Below, piece after piece: positions 54,200-64,000 of a stretch of DNA of 64,000 bases; positions within the stretch are counted from its first letter, which is position 1; each line of letters starts with the position of its first letter. The translations under genes and the position numbers were made by a program. Source of the DNA: Amycolatopsis sulphurea (lineage in GTDB: Bacteria > Actinomycetota > Actinomycetes > Mycobacteriales > Pseudonocardiaceae); the NCBI RefSeq assembly GCF_002564045.1, contig NZ_PDJK01000002.1, positions 806,001 to 870,000 on the forward strand, given 5' to 3'. The notes under the pieces were generated by a model, which was given only the letters and a program-made list of their open reading frames with translations, ran no database searches and had not been told where the DNA came from.

Positions 54200-55627
54200 T
54201 CAGATCGAGGCCTGTTCCTCCACCGGCAGGCAGATCTCGAACCGCGTGTCGCCGGGCACCGAAGTCACCTTGATGTCGCCCGAATGCCGGTCCGCGATGA
54301 TGCGCCACGAGATGTCCAGCCCGAGCCCGGTTCCCTCGCCCACGCCCTTAGTGGTGAAGAACGGCTCGAAAATGCGCTGCCGCACCTCTTCCGGGATGCC
54401 CGGACCGGTGTCGCCGATCTCCACTCGGATCTGTTGCCCGATCTGCCAGGTACGCAAAGTCAACGTGCCCTGCCCGCCCATCGCGCACACGGCGTTGTCG
54501 ATGATGTTGGTCCACACCTGGTTCAGCTCGGCGGCGTAGGCCGGTATCCGGGCGATCGAGCGGTCGTATTCCTTGACCACCCGGATTCCTTCGCCCAGCT
54601 TGCCGGACATCATCACCAGCGTGGAATCGAGCCCCTCGTGGACGTCGATGAACTGGTGCGGGGCACGATCCATCTGCGAGTACTGCTTCGCGGCGCCGAC
54701 GAGGGTCGAGACCCGGCTGGTGGAATCCTCGATCTCCCCCATGAGCATCTCGGTTTCGAGAGCGTAGGCGAGCCAGCGGATCGCCCCGTCGAGCAGTCCT
54801 TTGCCGACCGATTCCAGTACGTGGTCCAGATTCTCGGCAGTGAGCCCGGCGGCGACGAAGATGTTGGCCAGGTCCCAGCCTTGGTCGATCTCGCGCTCGT
54901 CGAACCAGTCGCCGATCTCGTCCTCGCGGTCGGCCTGCTGCATCGCGCTGAGTTTCGGCGCGTCGGCGACCTGTTTCACGAGCCGCTCCTGGACATCGAG
55001 CAGCAACTCGAGCAGATCGGGGTCGATGTCCTTCTTCGCCAGGATCGCCAGCTTGTGCCGCATCCCGCCGACCCGCTCGCGCAGCGCCGCGGTGGCCCGC
55101 ACCGCGGCCGCGGCGGGGTTGTTCAGCTCGTGCATGAGCCCGGCGGAGAGCTCGCCGAGCGCGACCAGGCGGCGCCGCGAGGACACGAGCGCGTCGTTGT
55201 TGCGCCAGCCGAGGTACATGCCCTCCAGCAGATGCGCGGCCATCGGGAACCAACGACGGAACTCCACCGCGAACTCGGCGGCGGGCAAGGTGAGGAAGGT
55301 CAGGTCACTCACCGCGTAGATAGTCGCGCTGTAGGTCGCCTCGCTGTTCTCGTGGGCGAGGAACTGGGTTGCCCCGCAATAGGACCCCCGCTGATCGGAT
55401 CGCTTGGTCTCGACTTCGGCGCCGGCCACCTGCCGGGTCATCCGCAACGCACCGCCGAGCAGCACGTAGAAGCAGGTCGCCGGGTCGCCCTCGCGGAACA
55501 CCACGGAGTCACCCTTGAACTCCTCGACCGCGGCGTGCTCTTCGATCCAGCCGAGCTGCTCTTCGGAAAGGTGCTCGAACAGGAACAGGCTGCGCAATTC
55601 CTTGCGCGACAGTGCGGGCTCGGTCAC
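54200..55627 (-). CDS. Histidine kinase with N-terminal cyclic-nucleotide-binding domain
   Basis: A soluble 475-residue kinase. Residues 1-140 are a CRP/cNMP-type domain (LFLFEHLSEEQLGWIEEHAA, FREGDPATCFYVLLGGALRM), with a cassette that differs from the canonical one (DQRGSYCGATQFLA). Then comes a dimerisation region whose His box is LGELSAGLMHELNNPAAAA, a helical stretch, and an HATPase (N-box NQVWTNIIDNAVCAMG, G1 VEIGDTGPGIPEE, G2 GEGTGLGLDI). The start overlaps the next gene's stop by 4 bp, so it is paired with the response regulator-reductase fusion. It may couple a ligand or redox signal to the fused regulator. Confidence 0.87.
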   Translation of the reverse strand: MTEPALSRKELRSLFLFEHLSEEQLGWIEEHAAVEEFKGDSVVFREGDPATCFYVLLGGALRMTRQVAGAEVETKRSDQRGSYCGATQFLAHENSEATYSATIYAVSDLTFLTLPAAEFAVEFRRWFPMAAHLLEGMYLGWRNNDALVSSRRRLVALGELSAGLMHELNNPAAAAVRATAALRERVGGMRHKLAILAKKDIDPDLLELLLDVQERLVKQVADAPKLSAMQQADREDEIGDWFDEREIDQGWDLANIFVAAGLTAENLDHVLESVGKGLLDGAIRWLAYALETEMLMGEIEDSTSRVSTLVGAAKQYSQMDRAPHQFIDVHEGLDSTLVMMSGKLGEGIRVVKEYDRSIARIPAYAAELNQVWTNIIDNAVCAMGGQGTLTLRTWQIGQQIRVEIGDTGPGIPEEVRQRIFEPFFTTKGVGEGTGLGLDISWRIIADRHSGDIKVTSVPGDTRFEICLPVEEQASI

Positions 55628-57276
55628 TGTTCCTCCAGGTAACGGTGGACCAGGGTGACGGCCATGGCTCCTTCGCCGACGGCGGAGGCCACCCGTTTCA
55701 CCGACTGCGAGCGGACGTCACCCGCGACGAACACCCCGGGTACGGACGACTCCAGGTAGTGCGGATCCCGGTCGAGAACCCAGCCGGCCGGACGACGGCC
55801 GTCCTCGATCAGATCCGGGCCGGTCCGGACGAAGCCATGCCCGTCACGCAGCATCGCGTCCCCCAGCCATCCCGTGCGCGGGGCGGCCCCGATGAAGATG
55901 AAGAGGTGCCCGGTGTCGAGTGTCTCAGTCGCACCGTTTTCGCAGACCGTGATGGATTCGAGGTGGTCGTTGCCATGAGCTTTGACCACAGTGGTGTGCG
56001 TTCGCACGTGGACGTTGTCCAGGGCCGCGAGCTGCTCGATGAGGTAGTGCGACATCGACGACTCCAGGGAACCGCCGCGTACGAGCAGCGTGACATCGGC
56101 AGCATGCCGGGAGAAGAACACCGCGGCCTGTCCGGCGGAGTTCGCACCACCGACGATGTAGATGTGCTCGCCCTCGCACTCGGGTGCTTCGGTGGCCGCG
56201 GAGCCGTAGTAGACACCTCGGCCGGTCAGCTCCTCGATGCCGTCGGCTTCGAGCGAACGGTAGGTGACTCCGCTGGCGAGGATCACCGAATGCGCGGCGA
56301 TCTCAGAGCCGTCGCCGAAGGTGACCACACGGCTCGACCCTCGCGCCTCCAGGCCGGTGACGTCCCTCGCGGTGAGCACCTCGGCGCCGAACTTCTGCGC
56401 TTGACGACGGGCCCGGTCGGTGAGCTGGGCTCCGGACACCCCGTCCGGGAAGCCGAGATAGTTCTCGATCCGCGAGCTGGTGCCCGCCTGGCCCCCGGTG
56501 GCCTTCCGCTCCACCAGCACCGTGCGGAGGCCCTCCGACGCGCCGTACACGGCGGCGCCCAGCCCAGCCGGACCGCCGCCGATCACCACGAGGTCATAGA
56601 AGTCTTGCGCCGGGCGAGTGGACAGGCCGACGGCGTCGGCGATCTCACCGCCGGAAGGCTGTTTGAGCACCGTGCCGTCCGGGGTGACCACCACCGGAAT
56701 GTCGGCCGCACAGGCGCCGGCGGCCTGCAGGATGCGACCGGCCTCCTCGTCGTCCACGGAATACCACCGATAGGGCACCGCATTGCGAGCGAGGAAGTCC
56801 CGCATCCGGAACGACGGCGCCGAATAGCGGTGACCGATCAGCTTCGTCTCCTCCACCGGGCGGTCGCCGACCGCCAGCCACGCCTCCACCAGCGAGTCGA
56901 TGACCGGGTACAGCTTCTCCTCCGGCGGGTCCCACGGTTTGAGCAGGTAATGGTCGACATCCACCACGTTGATGGCCTGGATCGCCGCGTCGGTGTCCGC
57001 GTAGGCGGTCAGCAGGGCGCGGCGGGCGTTGGGGAACAGATCCATCGCCTTCTCCAGGAAGACGATGCCGTCCATATGCGGCATGCGGTAGTCCGCGAGA
57101 ATGGCCGCGACCGCGTCGCCTCGCAGCTTGATCTCGCGAAGCGCGTCGAGCGCGTCGGCCCCCGAATCGGCGCGGATCACGCGGTAGTCCTTGCCGTAGC
57201 GGCGGCGCAGGTCCCGCGCGACCGACCGCGATACAGCGGGGTCGTCGTCCACGGTCATCAGGATCGGCTGGCTCAC
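55624..57276 (-). CDS. Response regulator fused to thioredoxin-reductase-like FAD enzyme
   Basis: A 550-residue fusion. Residues 1-125 form a receiver (TVDDDPAVSR, phospho-Asp in ILADYRMPHMDG, LLKPW), residues 135-210 a thioredoxin/glutaredoxin-like linker (FLARNAVPYRWYSVD), and 215-550 an FAD/NAD(P)H domain (VVIGGGPAGLGAAVYGASEG, GGQAGTSSRIENYLGFP, IYIVGGANSAGQAAVFF, GVFVAGDVRSQSVKRVASAV). The CXXC of true thioredoxin reductases is absent: the site reads VYYGSAATEAPEC. So it cannot reduce thioredoxin by the known route; it may oxidise NAD(P)H or sense redox state under control of phosphorylation. NCBI names similar fusions response regulator/thioredoxin-disulfide reductase. Confidence 0.88.
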   Translation of the reverse strand: MSQPILMTVDDDPAVSRSVARDLRRRYGKDYRVIRADSGADALDALREIKLRGDAVAAILADYRMPHMDGIVFLEKAMDLFPNARRALLTAYADTDAAIQAINVVDVDHYLLKPWDPPEEKLYPVIDSLVEAWLAVGDRPVEETKLIGHRYSAPSFRMRDFLARNAVPYRWYSVDDEEAGRILQAAGACAADIPVVVTPDGTVLKQPSGGEIADAVGLSTRPAQDFYDLVVIGGGPAGLGAAVYGASEGLRTVLVERKATGGQAGTSSRIENYLGFPDGVSGAQLTDRARRQAQKFGAEVLTARDVTGLEARGSSRVVTFGDGSEIAAHSVILASGVTYRSLEADGIEELTGRGVYYGSAATEAPECEGEHIYIVGGANSAGQAAVFFSRHAADVTLLVRGGSLESSMSHYLIEQLAALDNVHVRTHTTVVKAHGNDHLESITVCENGATETLDTGHLFIFIGAAPRTGWLGDAMLRDGHGFVRTGPDLIEDGRRPAGWVLDRDPHYLESSVPGVFVAGDVRSQSVKRVASAVGEGAMAVTLVHRYLEEQ

Positions 57277-59642: not shown

Positions 59643-59715
59643 GGGGCTATGGCGCAGCTGGTAGCGCACCTCACTGGCAGTGAGGGGGTCAGGGGTTCGA
59701 GTCCCCTTAGCTCCA
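59643..59715 (+). tRNA. tRNA-Ala (anticodon GGC)
   Basis: The 73-nt cloverleaf has acceptor GGGGCTA/TAGCTCC with one G-U pair, D-arm GCGCAGCTGGTAGCGC, anticodon arm CTCACTGGCAGTGAG (anticodon GGC, decoding GCC/GCT), T-arm CAGGGGTTCGAGTCCCCTT and discriminator A. The CCA is not fully encoded (ACCG follows). It is followed by a terminator. The genes beyond it are toxin-like and decayed, so it may mark an island border. Confidence 0.95.
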
Positions 59716-59727
59716 CCGTGACGAAAC

Positions 59728-61317: not shown

Positions 61318-64000
61318 CTACCGCCGCAGATGCCGGTAAACACGGGCAATGTCCCGCCATCCCATAGAACGAACCGGGCCTTTGCTGCCCCAGCCGGTCG
61401 GATTCCGATGATTCCGCCCTTGCAGGTACATGTGCGGTGTCGGAATATCACGTTTGACCTTCTTCTCGTGGTGCGTCTTTCCATAAAGGTCGTTGTGATA
61501 CCAGCCTTTTCGTGTCTCCACGACCACGCGTGACTTGCCCTTGTTCATCGTGTGCGCGATTCTCAAGGCAACCTTCGCCTTCGCTGCGGAGTTTACGCGA
61601 GAGACCGCCCGGCTGACGAACTTGACCGCGGATACCGCGCGGCCGACCCATCGGGCGGCACCGCCGCTCAGGGCATTGGCCGCAAAAGAAGCAGCCGCTC
61701 TCCAGTTTCCTTGAACGGCGTTGCCGACCGCAGCTACTCCACTGGCTACAGCTCCGATCGGCCCCGGGATGTTGGAAACGGCCGCAGCGATGCTGGTGAC
61801 GACGTTGACGGCCGCGCTGAGCCATCCCCACATCGTTCCGTCGAGGTCGGTTGCGTTGATGGGGTCGCCTGCGACGTAGTCGTAGTCGTTGGCAGAGCCG
61901 CCCTCTACGGGGTCGACCGAGAGGAACCGGCCGAGCAGCGGGCTGTACGGCCGGGCTCCCATCTGAACCAGCGACAACGCGCCGGCGTGTTCGTAGGGGC
62001 GCTGGTACTGGCCCAGCCAGCCGTAGTCCATCGAGCCCGGCGAGTTGTCCGGCACATTCTGCGTGTCCACCGCACCCGACGGAGCCAAGGGCTGGCCGTA
62101 GGGGTCGTAGGAGCGCAGGTCGCCCACCTGATGTCCTGCGATGTCAGTGGTGAGGACCAGGTCGCCGCGGACAGAAGGGTGGTCGTAAGCGGAGGTGAAT
62201 CTGCCGTCGTTGCCGAGCTTGCTGGTGTACAACACGCCGCCGGGCAACGAGAGCGACAAGGACGTGAGGCGGTTGTCGGCGTTCAGGGTCAGATCAGGAG
62301 AATCGCCGTCGCCGGTGAAGCCGTATCGGGTGACGGTGTTGTTGTCGCAGTCGCGGGGATCGCGACGAATGATGCGGTTGGTTGCGTCGCGGGTGTAGGC
62401 GATGTCGGCGTTGAGCGCCGGAGTCAGCCCGGTGGTACGTACCCCGGTGTTGCGGCCAGAGCCGTCCCAGGTGAGCGTGGTGGTGCTGCCGTCTGCGGCT
62501 TTCCAGCTGGTGGTGTTGCCGTCGGTGTCGTAGGTGAACCCGGTCAGCGAGGTGGCGCCTTCGGTGGCGAGGAGCCGGTCGGCGTCGTCGTAGCAGTACC
62601 GGGTTTCCGCGGTGCCAGAGGCGGTTTGGTCGAGCAGGCGCACCCGGTTGGTGTTGAGGCCCGCGTTGGCCTGGGTTCCGACCGGGCAGGTCGCGGATGC
62701 GGTGGAGGTGTAGTCGTAGGTGTAGTGGTGGCCGGTGACGTAGGCCTCGGTCAGGCGTCCCGCGCCGTCGTACACGTAGTTGGGCGCGTTGGCCCGGGCA
62801 TCGGTGCCGCCGAGGGACTCGTCGATAATCGTGCCCGCCGCGGTGCGGCCAACCTGGGACACGATGTGCTTGTTGTCGCTGGTTTTCCAATCCAGTGACA
62901 ACAGCCGGGCTGCGTTGTCCTTGCCGAGCGCGCTGAGACTCGTGCCGTTGGCGTAGGTAGCCGAAGCCAGTTCTCCTGCGTTGTCGTAGGCCACGCTGGC
63001 GAGGACGACGCCGTCCAGCTTCTGAGTTTGGACTCGCCCGGCATCGTCGTAGGCATAGATCAGCGTGTGCGGTGCGTCAGCACTATTGGGTGGGGTAATA
63101 GTGCTGGATGTGACGCGGCCGACCTGGTCGTAGCTGGTGGTGGTCCGAACGCCGTTGACGTCGGTGTAGGCGACGACGCGCCCGAGCACGTCGACGGTGG
63201 TGGTGATAGTGCCCTGCTCGTCGGAGACCGAACTGGTGAGCGGGTCTCCGCCGACCCCGTAATCGTGCTTCACCGTTCCGGCCGCAGAGGTCGCCGACGA
63301 GGGGGCGCGCTCCTCGACGGGCCGGTCGCGGTTGTCGTAGGTCGTGCAAGTCCAGTCGCCGCCAGTGGACTCGGCGACCACACGCCCAGTCGCGTCGTAG
63401 ACCTGTTCGTCGACACGAGCCGGTCCGCTCGCCGGGGCGGCTGAGGTGACGAGTTTCGCAAGACCGCCTTGGCTGACCGGGGCGCTGCCCGCGACGCAGG
63501 GGTTGGCGCGGGTTTCGGTGTCGCCGTAGTAGGCGTAAACGGTCTTGGCGCCGGTGGCCATGGTCTTGCTGGTCTTGCGCAGGTAACCGGTACCGGGTGT
63601 TTCGTAGCCAACCGAGCCGTTGATCTTCAGTCCGGCCGGGTTGCCCTGTCCGGACGTGGCCAGGCCGTAGACAGGGTCGAGGCCGCTCTCGCCGAACCGC
63701 GTCGTGCCGACCTTGTCGGGCACTCCGTCCGATTCTGACGCGGTCTTCGATGTGGTCAGCCCGTAGCGCGGGCGCAGCGCCGTTCCGGGGACGAGTTCTT
63801 CGGCTTTGCCGGGTGCGATCCAGTTGAGGTCGAGTTTGGCGTAGCCGCCGTTGTCGTAGTAGTCGATGCGGATCTTCTTGGCCTGGCCTGGGGCGTCGCT
63901 GTGGACGGTCGCTTCGCGCCAGGCGGGGTTGCTGATCTGCCAGTAATCCATCACGAGCTGGTCGTCGATCCACATGCGGATGCCGTCGTCGACGTTGGCC
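61318..64000 (-). CDS. RHS/YD-repeat polymorphic toxin, partial (5' end outside window)
   Basis: The visible 893 codons begin in a PA14-type domain (VDDGIRMWIDDQLVMDYW at the window edge; the N-terminus is outside). Then come YD repeats (YDATGRVVAE, YDNAGELASATYANGTSL, YTYDYTSTASATC, FTYDTDGNTTSWKA) and the RHS core end (YGQPLAPSGAVD, GARPYSPLLGRFLSVDPVEG, NDYDYVAGDPINATDLDG). After it lies a variable tail of about 170 residues with a hydrophobic Ala-rich stretch (a pore-like linker) and a basic C-terminus (ETRKGWYHNDLYGKTHHEKK, KRDIPTPHMYLQGRNHRN). The His-rich end suggests a nuclease toxin, but no named family is recognised. An immunity gene follows. It is likely secreted for contact-dependent competition. 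Confidence 0.85.
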   Translation of the reverse strand, partial: ANVDDGIRMWIDDQLVMDYWQISNPAWREATVHSDAPGQAKKIRIDYYDNGGYAKLDLNWIAPGKAEELVPGTALRPRYGLTTSKTASESDGVPDKVGTTRFGESGLDPVYGLATSGQGNPAGLKINGSVGYETPGTGYLRKTSKTMATGAKTVYAYYGDTETRANPCVAGSAPVSQGGLAKLVTSAAPASGPARVDEQVYDATGRVVAESTGGDWTCTTYDNRDRPVEERAPSSATSAAGTVKHDYGVGGDPLTSSVSDEQGTITTTVDVLGRVVAYTDVNGVRTTTSYDQVGRVTSSTITPPNSADAPHTLIYAYDDAGRVQTQKLDGVVLASVAYDNAGELASATYANGTSLSALGKDNAARLLSLDWKTSDNKHIVSQVGRTAAGTIIDESLGGTDARANAPNYVYDGAGRLTEAYVTGHHYTYDYTSTASATCPVGTQANAGLNTNRVRLLDQTASGTAETRYCYDDADRLLATEGATSLTGFTYDTDGNTTSWKAADGSTTTLTWDGSGRNTGVRTTGLTPALNADIAYTRDATNRIIRRDPRDCDNNTVTRYGFTGDGDSPDLTLNADNRLTSLSLSLPGGVLYTSKLGNDGRFTSAYDHPSVRGDLVLTTDIAGHQVGDLRSYDPYGQPLAPSGAVDTQNVPDNSPGSMDYGWLGQYQRPYEHAGALSLVQMGARPYSPLLGRFLSVDPVEGGSANDYDYVAGDPINATDLDGTMWGWLSAAVNVVTSIAAAVSNIPGPIGAVASGVAAVGNAVQGNWRAAASFAANALSGGAARWVGRAVSAVKFVSRAVSRVNSAAKAKVALRIAHTMNKGKSRVVVETRKGWYHNDLYGKTHHEKKVKRDIPTPHMYLQGRNHRNPTGWGSKGPVRSMGWRDIARVYRHLRR

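Follow-up and report, generated by a model that had tools for sequence, protein, structure and literature searches.

The window, a 64,000-nucleotide stretch of the Amycolatopsis sulphurea genome, carries on its reverse strand an overlapping pair of genes, one for a response regulator (RR) that also has the makeup of a flavoprotein and one for a soluble histidine kinase (HK). RR starts with GTG. The GTG start of HK lies over the TGA stop of RR so that four bases (GTGA) are shared at the junction, CAGTGACCGAG; the 3′ end of RR reads GAGGAACAGTGACCGAG, including the TGA stop within this overlap. The genes and the domains predicted in their products are as follows.

55624..57276, minus strand: RR, response regulator and Cys-less glutaredoxin (Grx)-thioredoxin reductase (TrxR)-like flavoprotein; 550 aa, AlphaFold2 mean pLDDT 87.8
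56902..57276, minus strand: receiver (REC) of RR, aa 1-125; PF00072, with D10 D11 D12, D62, T90 and K113
56635..56850, minus strand: glutaredoxin-fold domain of RR without CPxC, aa 143-214; AlphaFold2 model and family profile
55627..56604, minus strand: TrxR-like FAD/NAD(P)H domain of RR, aa 225-550; PF07992 and structure match to 5mh4
56176..56211, minus strand: former CXXC site of RR, aa 356-367, YYGSAATEAPEC; alignments
54200..55627, minus strand: HK, soluble histidine kinase; 475 aa, model mean pLDDT 87.2
55268..55525, minus strand: cNMP-fold input domain of HK, aa 35-120; PF00027, no canonical phosphate-binding-cassette Glu/Arg
54665..55180, minus strand: DHp region of HK, aa 150-321; H166 helix, four-helix insertion (~203-274) and second DHp helix
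54218..54532, minus strand: HATPase_c catalytic domain of HK, aa 366-470; PF02518, 82.6 bits

Pfam matches of both proteins bear out the position and content that a first-pass annotation had assigned to this pair, each member of which occurs in a single copy in the A. sulphurea genome. RR has only two further relatives encoded there, a conventional TrxB that matches it at 34% across the flavin domain and one oxidoreductase at 32%; HK likewise has two, kinases that match it just at the C-terminal part. No recognizable partner gene lies 3′ of HK, where a convergent gene with no match in Pfam is found; 5′ of RR is a gene for a large protein, again with no Pfam match. Also in the window are a tRNA-Ala (GGC) gene at 59643-59717 (plus strand) and, upstream at 61318-63975 (minus strand), the gene for a large YD-repeat/RHS-like protein, so named by eye from the translation.

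Domains of the two proteins

Conservation counts for RR refer to 81 aligned rows drawn from the best 80 of at least about 590 relatives. The receiver (Pfam Response_reg, aa 7-118, 49.3 bits) has its catalytic residues D10, D11, T90 and K113 in all 81 rows and D62 in 80 of them, and the C-terminal half of the protein matches Pyr_redox_2 (Pfam, aa 227-536, 114.7 bits). A receiver joined to an NAD(P)H/FAD domain is what the first-pass annotation had described; both are indeed present, but a third domain (aa 143-214) had been overlooked. In the AlphaFold2 model this region folds as beta-alpha-beta-alpha-beta-beta-alpha, and its profile matches, at 71 bits, the N-terminal domain of the relative L095, a domain that is Glutaredoxin by Pfam and close to mycoredoxin by NCBIfam. 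At the Grx active site RR reads APSF (aa 153-156) against CPDC in L095, and column counts find CPxC at this site in none of the 81 rows.

Within the flavin domain, RR reads GSAAT where the TrxB of the same genome and L095 have CATC. The whole protein has three cysteines only (189, 367 and 445), so that no CXXC is possible anywhere in it, and the earlier observation that the thioredoxin reductase CXXC has been replaced is confirmed. Every aligned relative except the outgroup L095 lacks CXXC at both the TrxR and the Grx site, while a stray CxxC occurs elsewhere in the core in 8 of the 81 rows. Judged from these alignments, the dithiol loss is double, at the Grx and TrxR sites alike, and common to the whole family. 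Other residues are now fixed at the old TrxR active site, with Y357 and E363 in 81/81 rows and Y356 and G358 in 80/81; such invariance or near invariance argues for a function that has changed rather than decayed.

Cofactor motifs have fared differently from the dithiols. The alignments retain the FAD motifs (GxGxxG, GGQAG.SS.IENYLGFP and GDVR..S.KRVASAVGEG) and the NAD(P) Rossmann motif; in place of the NADPH motif HRRxxxR, RR has VRGGSLESSMS, with one Arg of the three kept (R400). Against the NCBIfam equivalog TIGR01292 (cut-off 343.45), RR scores 205.5 bits and fails, whereas the TrxB of the same genome passes with 400.1.

The predicted structure of RR lies close to the Lactococcus lactis TrxR entry 5mh4 (Z 36.5, rmsd 1.6), a flavin-reducing (FR) conformer, and to 1f6m (rmsd 2.0), likewise FR; rmsd rises to 7.4 for the flavin-oxidizing (FO) entry 5mjk and to 7.6 for 1tde, also FO, the labels of 5mh4 and 5mjk being those of the entry titles. 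The model thus matches FR far better than FO TrxRs, although this orientation may reflect predictor bias. Together with the PF07992 match, the structural match to TrxR agrees with the earlier view that the output is a flavoprotein fold and not a DNA-binding one. Nothing in RR suggests a membrane helix (maximum KD19 = 1.36).

In HK, the input domain matches cNMP_binding (PF00027, aa 35-120) at 43.8 bits, above the cut-off of 27.5. The CRP-like input domain anticipated for this kinase is therefore present as a fold, but its cassette region reads RGSYCGATQFL..EATYSAT, without the Glu and Arg (GE...R) that go with cyclic nucleotides. Judged from alignments, HK and the sequences closest to it lack these residues of the phosphate-binding cassette, which some remoter homologues (L056 and L059, for example) do have. 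A cNMP fold without the cassette Glu/Arg makes cAMP sensing unlikely here; with the pocket Glu and Arg absent from the aligned sequences throughout the window clade, it was rejected as the function of HK, and the input in this clade is probably not a cyclic nucleotide.

The cNMP fold runs, in the model, into a long helix carrying H166, the first of a series at 126-197, 202-220, 227-243, 249-258, 263-273 and 278-320. Aligned family members also have the four-helix insertion that separates the DHp helices. HisKA gives a weak match (aa 157-222) below the Pfam cut-off; the kinase motifs are complete, with H166 in GLMHELNNP (the H-box, which is conserved), NIIDNA (N-box), DTGPGIP (G1) and GEGTGLGL (G2). 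By hydrophobicity, HK has no likely membrane helix either (maximum KD19 = 1.32), in keeping with the prior description of the kinase as soluble.

Relatives, architectures and neighbors

A genome scan found at least about 590 genome stretches encoding RR relatives. The best 80 come from about 10 phyla, with Cyanobacteria, Acidobacteriota, Chloroflexota, Deinococcota, Betaproteobacteria, Verrucomicrobia, Gemmatimonadetes, Actinomycetota, one Bacteroidetes MAG and one archaeal MAG among the sources. Within the 74 of these loci that had enough sequence, HK lies directly downstream of RR in 54; a further 10 have it at another place in the locus, and 10 others have no such kinase within reach. To judge from these genomes, the RR/HK architecture is widespread and not peculiar to A. 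sulphurea, and the pair, conserved in about 10 phyla, is not a chance association.

Several individual loci extend this picture. In Rubrobacteraceae-type loci (L049, L050, L051, L118 and L128), one RR is followed by three consecutive family kinases, an arrangement that suggests several inputs to one flavoprotein. At L060, the RR relative has its nearby family kinase about 3 kb upstream, and this kinase apparently carries a receiver-like sequence where the cNMP domain would be. Homologues of RR and the kinase also occur in a Nitrososphaeraceae (archaeal) metagenome bin (L167), where contamination is possible.

Among Actinomycetota, 69 of 296 genomes have a match at E < 1e-60, and the 60 loci examined in this phylum present three architectures on the Cys-less Grx-TrxR core. 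In architecture A the receiver retains its catalytic residues and an HK adjoins it. Architecture B has a degenerate receiver, with T90 replaced in nearly all cases and D62 in many, and no HK; architecture C carries a cNMP domain in cis, also without HK. An HK is adjacent in 24 of the 25 Actinomycetota loci with an intact REC triad and in 0 of the 19 with a degenerate one (Fisher p 1.4e-11, on points that shared clades make non-independent). This retention of the triad with the kinase and its loss in the kinase-less sister group, along with the operon overlap, upholds the proposed coupling of kinase and regulator.

A quick tree of the core accounts for the architectures with just 2 changes, the minimum number; support at its deep forks is modest. 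L095, a glutaredoxin/mycoredoxin-TrxR fusion that retains both dithiols (CPDC and CATC), may show what the ancestor of the Cys-less core looked like; it sits on a long branch in an unsure position, and for this reason the sequence of events is a matter of interpretation.

A universal third operon partner was sought and rejected. Only a small UBP-type zinc-finger gene (zf-UBP, PF02148) recurs: it follows HK in Streptomyces and Tsukamurella and is found near all three core architectures in a minority of loci, with none adjoining the window pair; one zf-UBP is located at another place in the A. sulphurea genome. Such genes lie right after or near the kinase gene at L101:9101-9454 and L103:7452-7802 and in L038, L040-L044, L106, L109, L124, L159 and L183, and near the cNMP-type core in L078, L082, L090 and L091. 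No other clearly recurrent neighbor was found among the loci compared.

Proposed mechanism and its alternatives

The sequences show the catalytic sets of HK and REC to be complete, their linkage conserved, the cofactor motifs kept and the dithiols lost. The best explanation, to which we give an even chance, is a dedicated two-component system in which phosphorylation switches an FAD/NAD(P)H core that uses non-dithiol chemistry. The cNMP-fold domain of HK would sense a cytoplasmic signal; HK would autophosphorylate at H166 and pass the phosphate to D62 of the receiver, a transfer deduced from the conserved catalytic residues, the operon overlap and the co-conservation of the two proteins. Once phosphorylated, the receiver would pack in another way on the Cys-less Grx-TrxR-like core, thereby switching the FAD/NAD(P)H state of the latter. 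With both dithiols gone, the core cannot act as a thioredoxin or glutaredoxin reductase. Most likely, NAD(P)H would donate a hydride to FAD, which would hand it on to an acceptor that is not a dithiol; if the model is a guide, the NAD(P) domain would be held in the flavin-reducing orientation. For RR itself, we infer FAD binding, non-dithiol chemistry and the gating by phosphorylation that the first-pass annotation had suggested. The single Arg kept of the three in HRRxxxR and the 10 of 74 loci without HK count against this explanation.

The same core occurs under a cis cNMP domain in sister families, so that receiver plus kinase would be a swapped-in regulatory input. This swapping of regulatory domains around a single core suggests that cNMP-in-cis and kinase-plus-receiver control the same activity. 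A more general account, advanced tentatively and with rather less confidence than the switch itself, is that the two dithiols of an ancestral Grx-TrxR fusion were lost a single time, that a new conserved active site, YYGA...E, was acquired, and that the fusion became a switched non-thiol NAD(P)H flavoenzyme; the switch would be phosphorylation or a ligand, and control would be interchangeable between a cis cNMP domain and a cNMP-fold kinase acting via a receiver.

The thiol-less core could also be a non-catalytic sensor, in which the FAD/NAD(P)H redox state of the flavin domain sets phosphorylation or dephosphorylation of REC and the signal exits by protein-protein contacts. Cofactor motifs conserved without a dithiol would suit such a role, and tandem kinases beside one RR in several lineages suggest a hub. 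A report on Salmonella (PMC9584953) describes thioredoxin docking with response regulators by way of surface residues, and the Cys-less Grx fold could by comparison be a docking module. However, the core is also found without a nearby kinase and with a cis cNMP domain, where it is itself likely the output, and no universal downstream partner gene accompanies it; a sensor is possible but on balance unlikely.

We consider it decidedly less probable that the core is a catalytically dead scaffold serving only for dimerization or binding, its FAD structural or absent. The disappearance of both dithiols and of two of the three NADPH-phosphate Arg residues would be understandable in that case, but near-invariant FAD and NAD(P) motifs across about 10 phyla, and new invariant residues (Y357 and E363, as above) at the old active site, would not. 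Still less credible is a single-Cys thiol enzyme working through Cys367, four residues past E363, in the manner of single-Cys flavoprotein peroxidases or CoA-disulfide reductases: C367 is present in 71 of the 81 rows, but Tyr replaces it in 9, and Actinomycetota relatives have other residues there, such as V, F, H, Y or M. That kinase and flavoprotein are not partners and adjoin incidentally might be argued from the 10 loci that lack a kinase within reach, but adjacency in 54 of 74 loci over many phyla, the 4-base overlap in the window pair and the breakdown of the REC triad at loci without the kinase make this very improbable.

Significance and known systems

Most response regulators switch transcription, while the one described here would switch a flavoprotein; if the switched-flavoprotein reading is true, a two-component system exerts direct post-translational control of redox metabolism. 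Domain exchange, with a cNMP domain in cis or a cNMP-fold kinase in trans, means that the logic linking input to output can be tested directly. A literature search, with subscription journals mostly outside its range, found no experimental study of the RR/HK system, and a review of Deinococcus thiol reductases mentions neither cNMP, receiver nor histidine kinase.

Public annotation calls the relatives either “FAD-dependent oxidoreductase” or “cyclic nucleotide-binding domain-containing thioredoxin-disulfide reductase.” Both types of entry share the RR core, and the second is the cNMP-in-cis sister architecture. The name “thioredoxin-disulfide reductase” is misleading because the aligned relatives have no CXXC and RR falls below the TIGR01292 cut-off; in some records, then, proteins so named lack the dithiol needed for that reaction.

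RR has the fold of TrxB, with both the FAD and the NAD(P) domain (Z up to 36.9), and differs from it in having no CXXC, an HRRxxxR motif reduced to one Arg, and fused REC and Grx-like domains. The L095 fusion has the same Grx-then-TrxR order, with both parts clearly homologous to those of RR, but it still carries CPDC and CATC and lacks any regulatory domain. TrxR-like ferredoxin-NADP reductases (FNRs) have a TrxR fold without CXXC, and RR resembles them in this; the structural match is weaker (Z <= 29.2), and the RR chain stops at the last TrxR helix, with no C-terminal extension over the flavin such as these FNRs have. AhpF also places an N-terminal Trx-fold part before a TrxR domain, with redox cysteines in both (PMC8945050), whereas RR has them in neither. 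Membership of RR in the FNR or AhpF groups is not favored, their features being weaker or missing.

Enzymatic output is already known among response regulators, and a thioredoxin-reductase-type RR fusion has previously been named in passing, from unfinished metagenomic samples (Galperin et al. 2018, PMC5847659). The available part of that account does not include the Cys-less Grx domain, the CXXC loss, the cNMP-fold kinase or the spread of RR/HK across phyla; it has in common with the present system the fusion of REC to a TrxR-like enzyme domain and the thought that the enzyme is thereby placed under environmental control.
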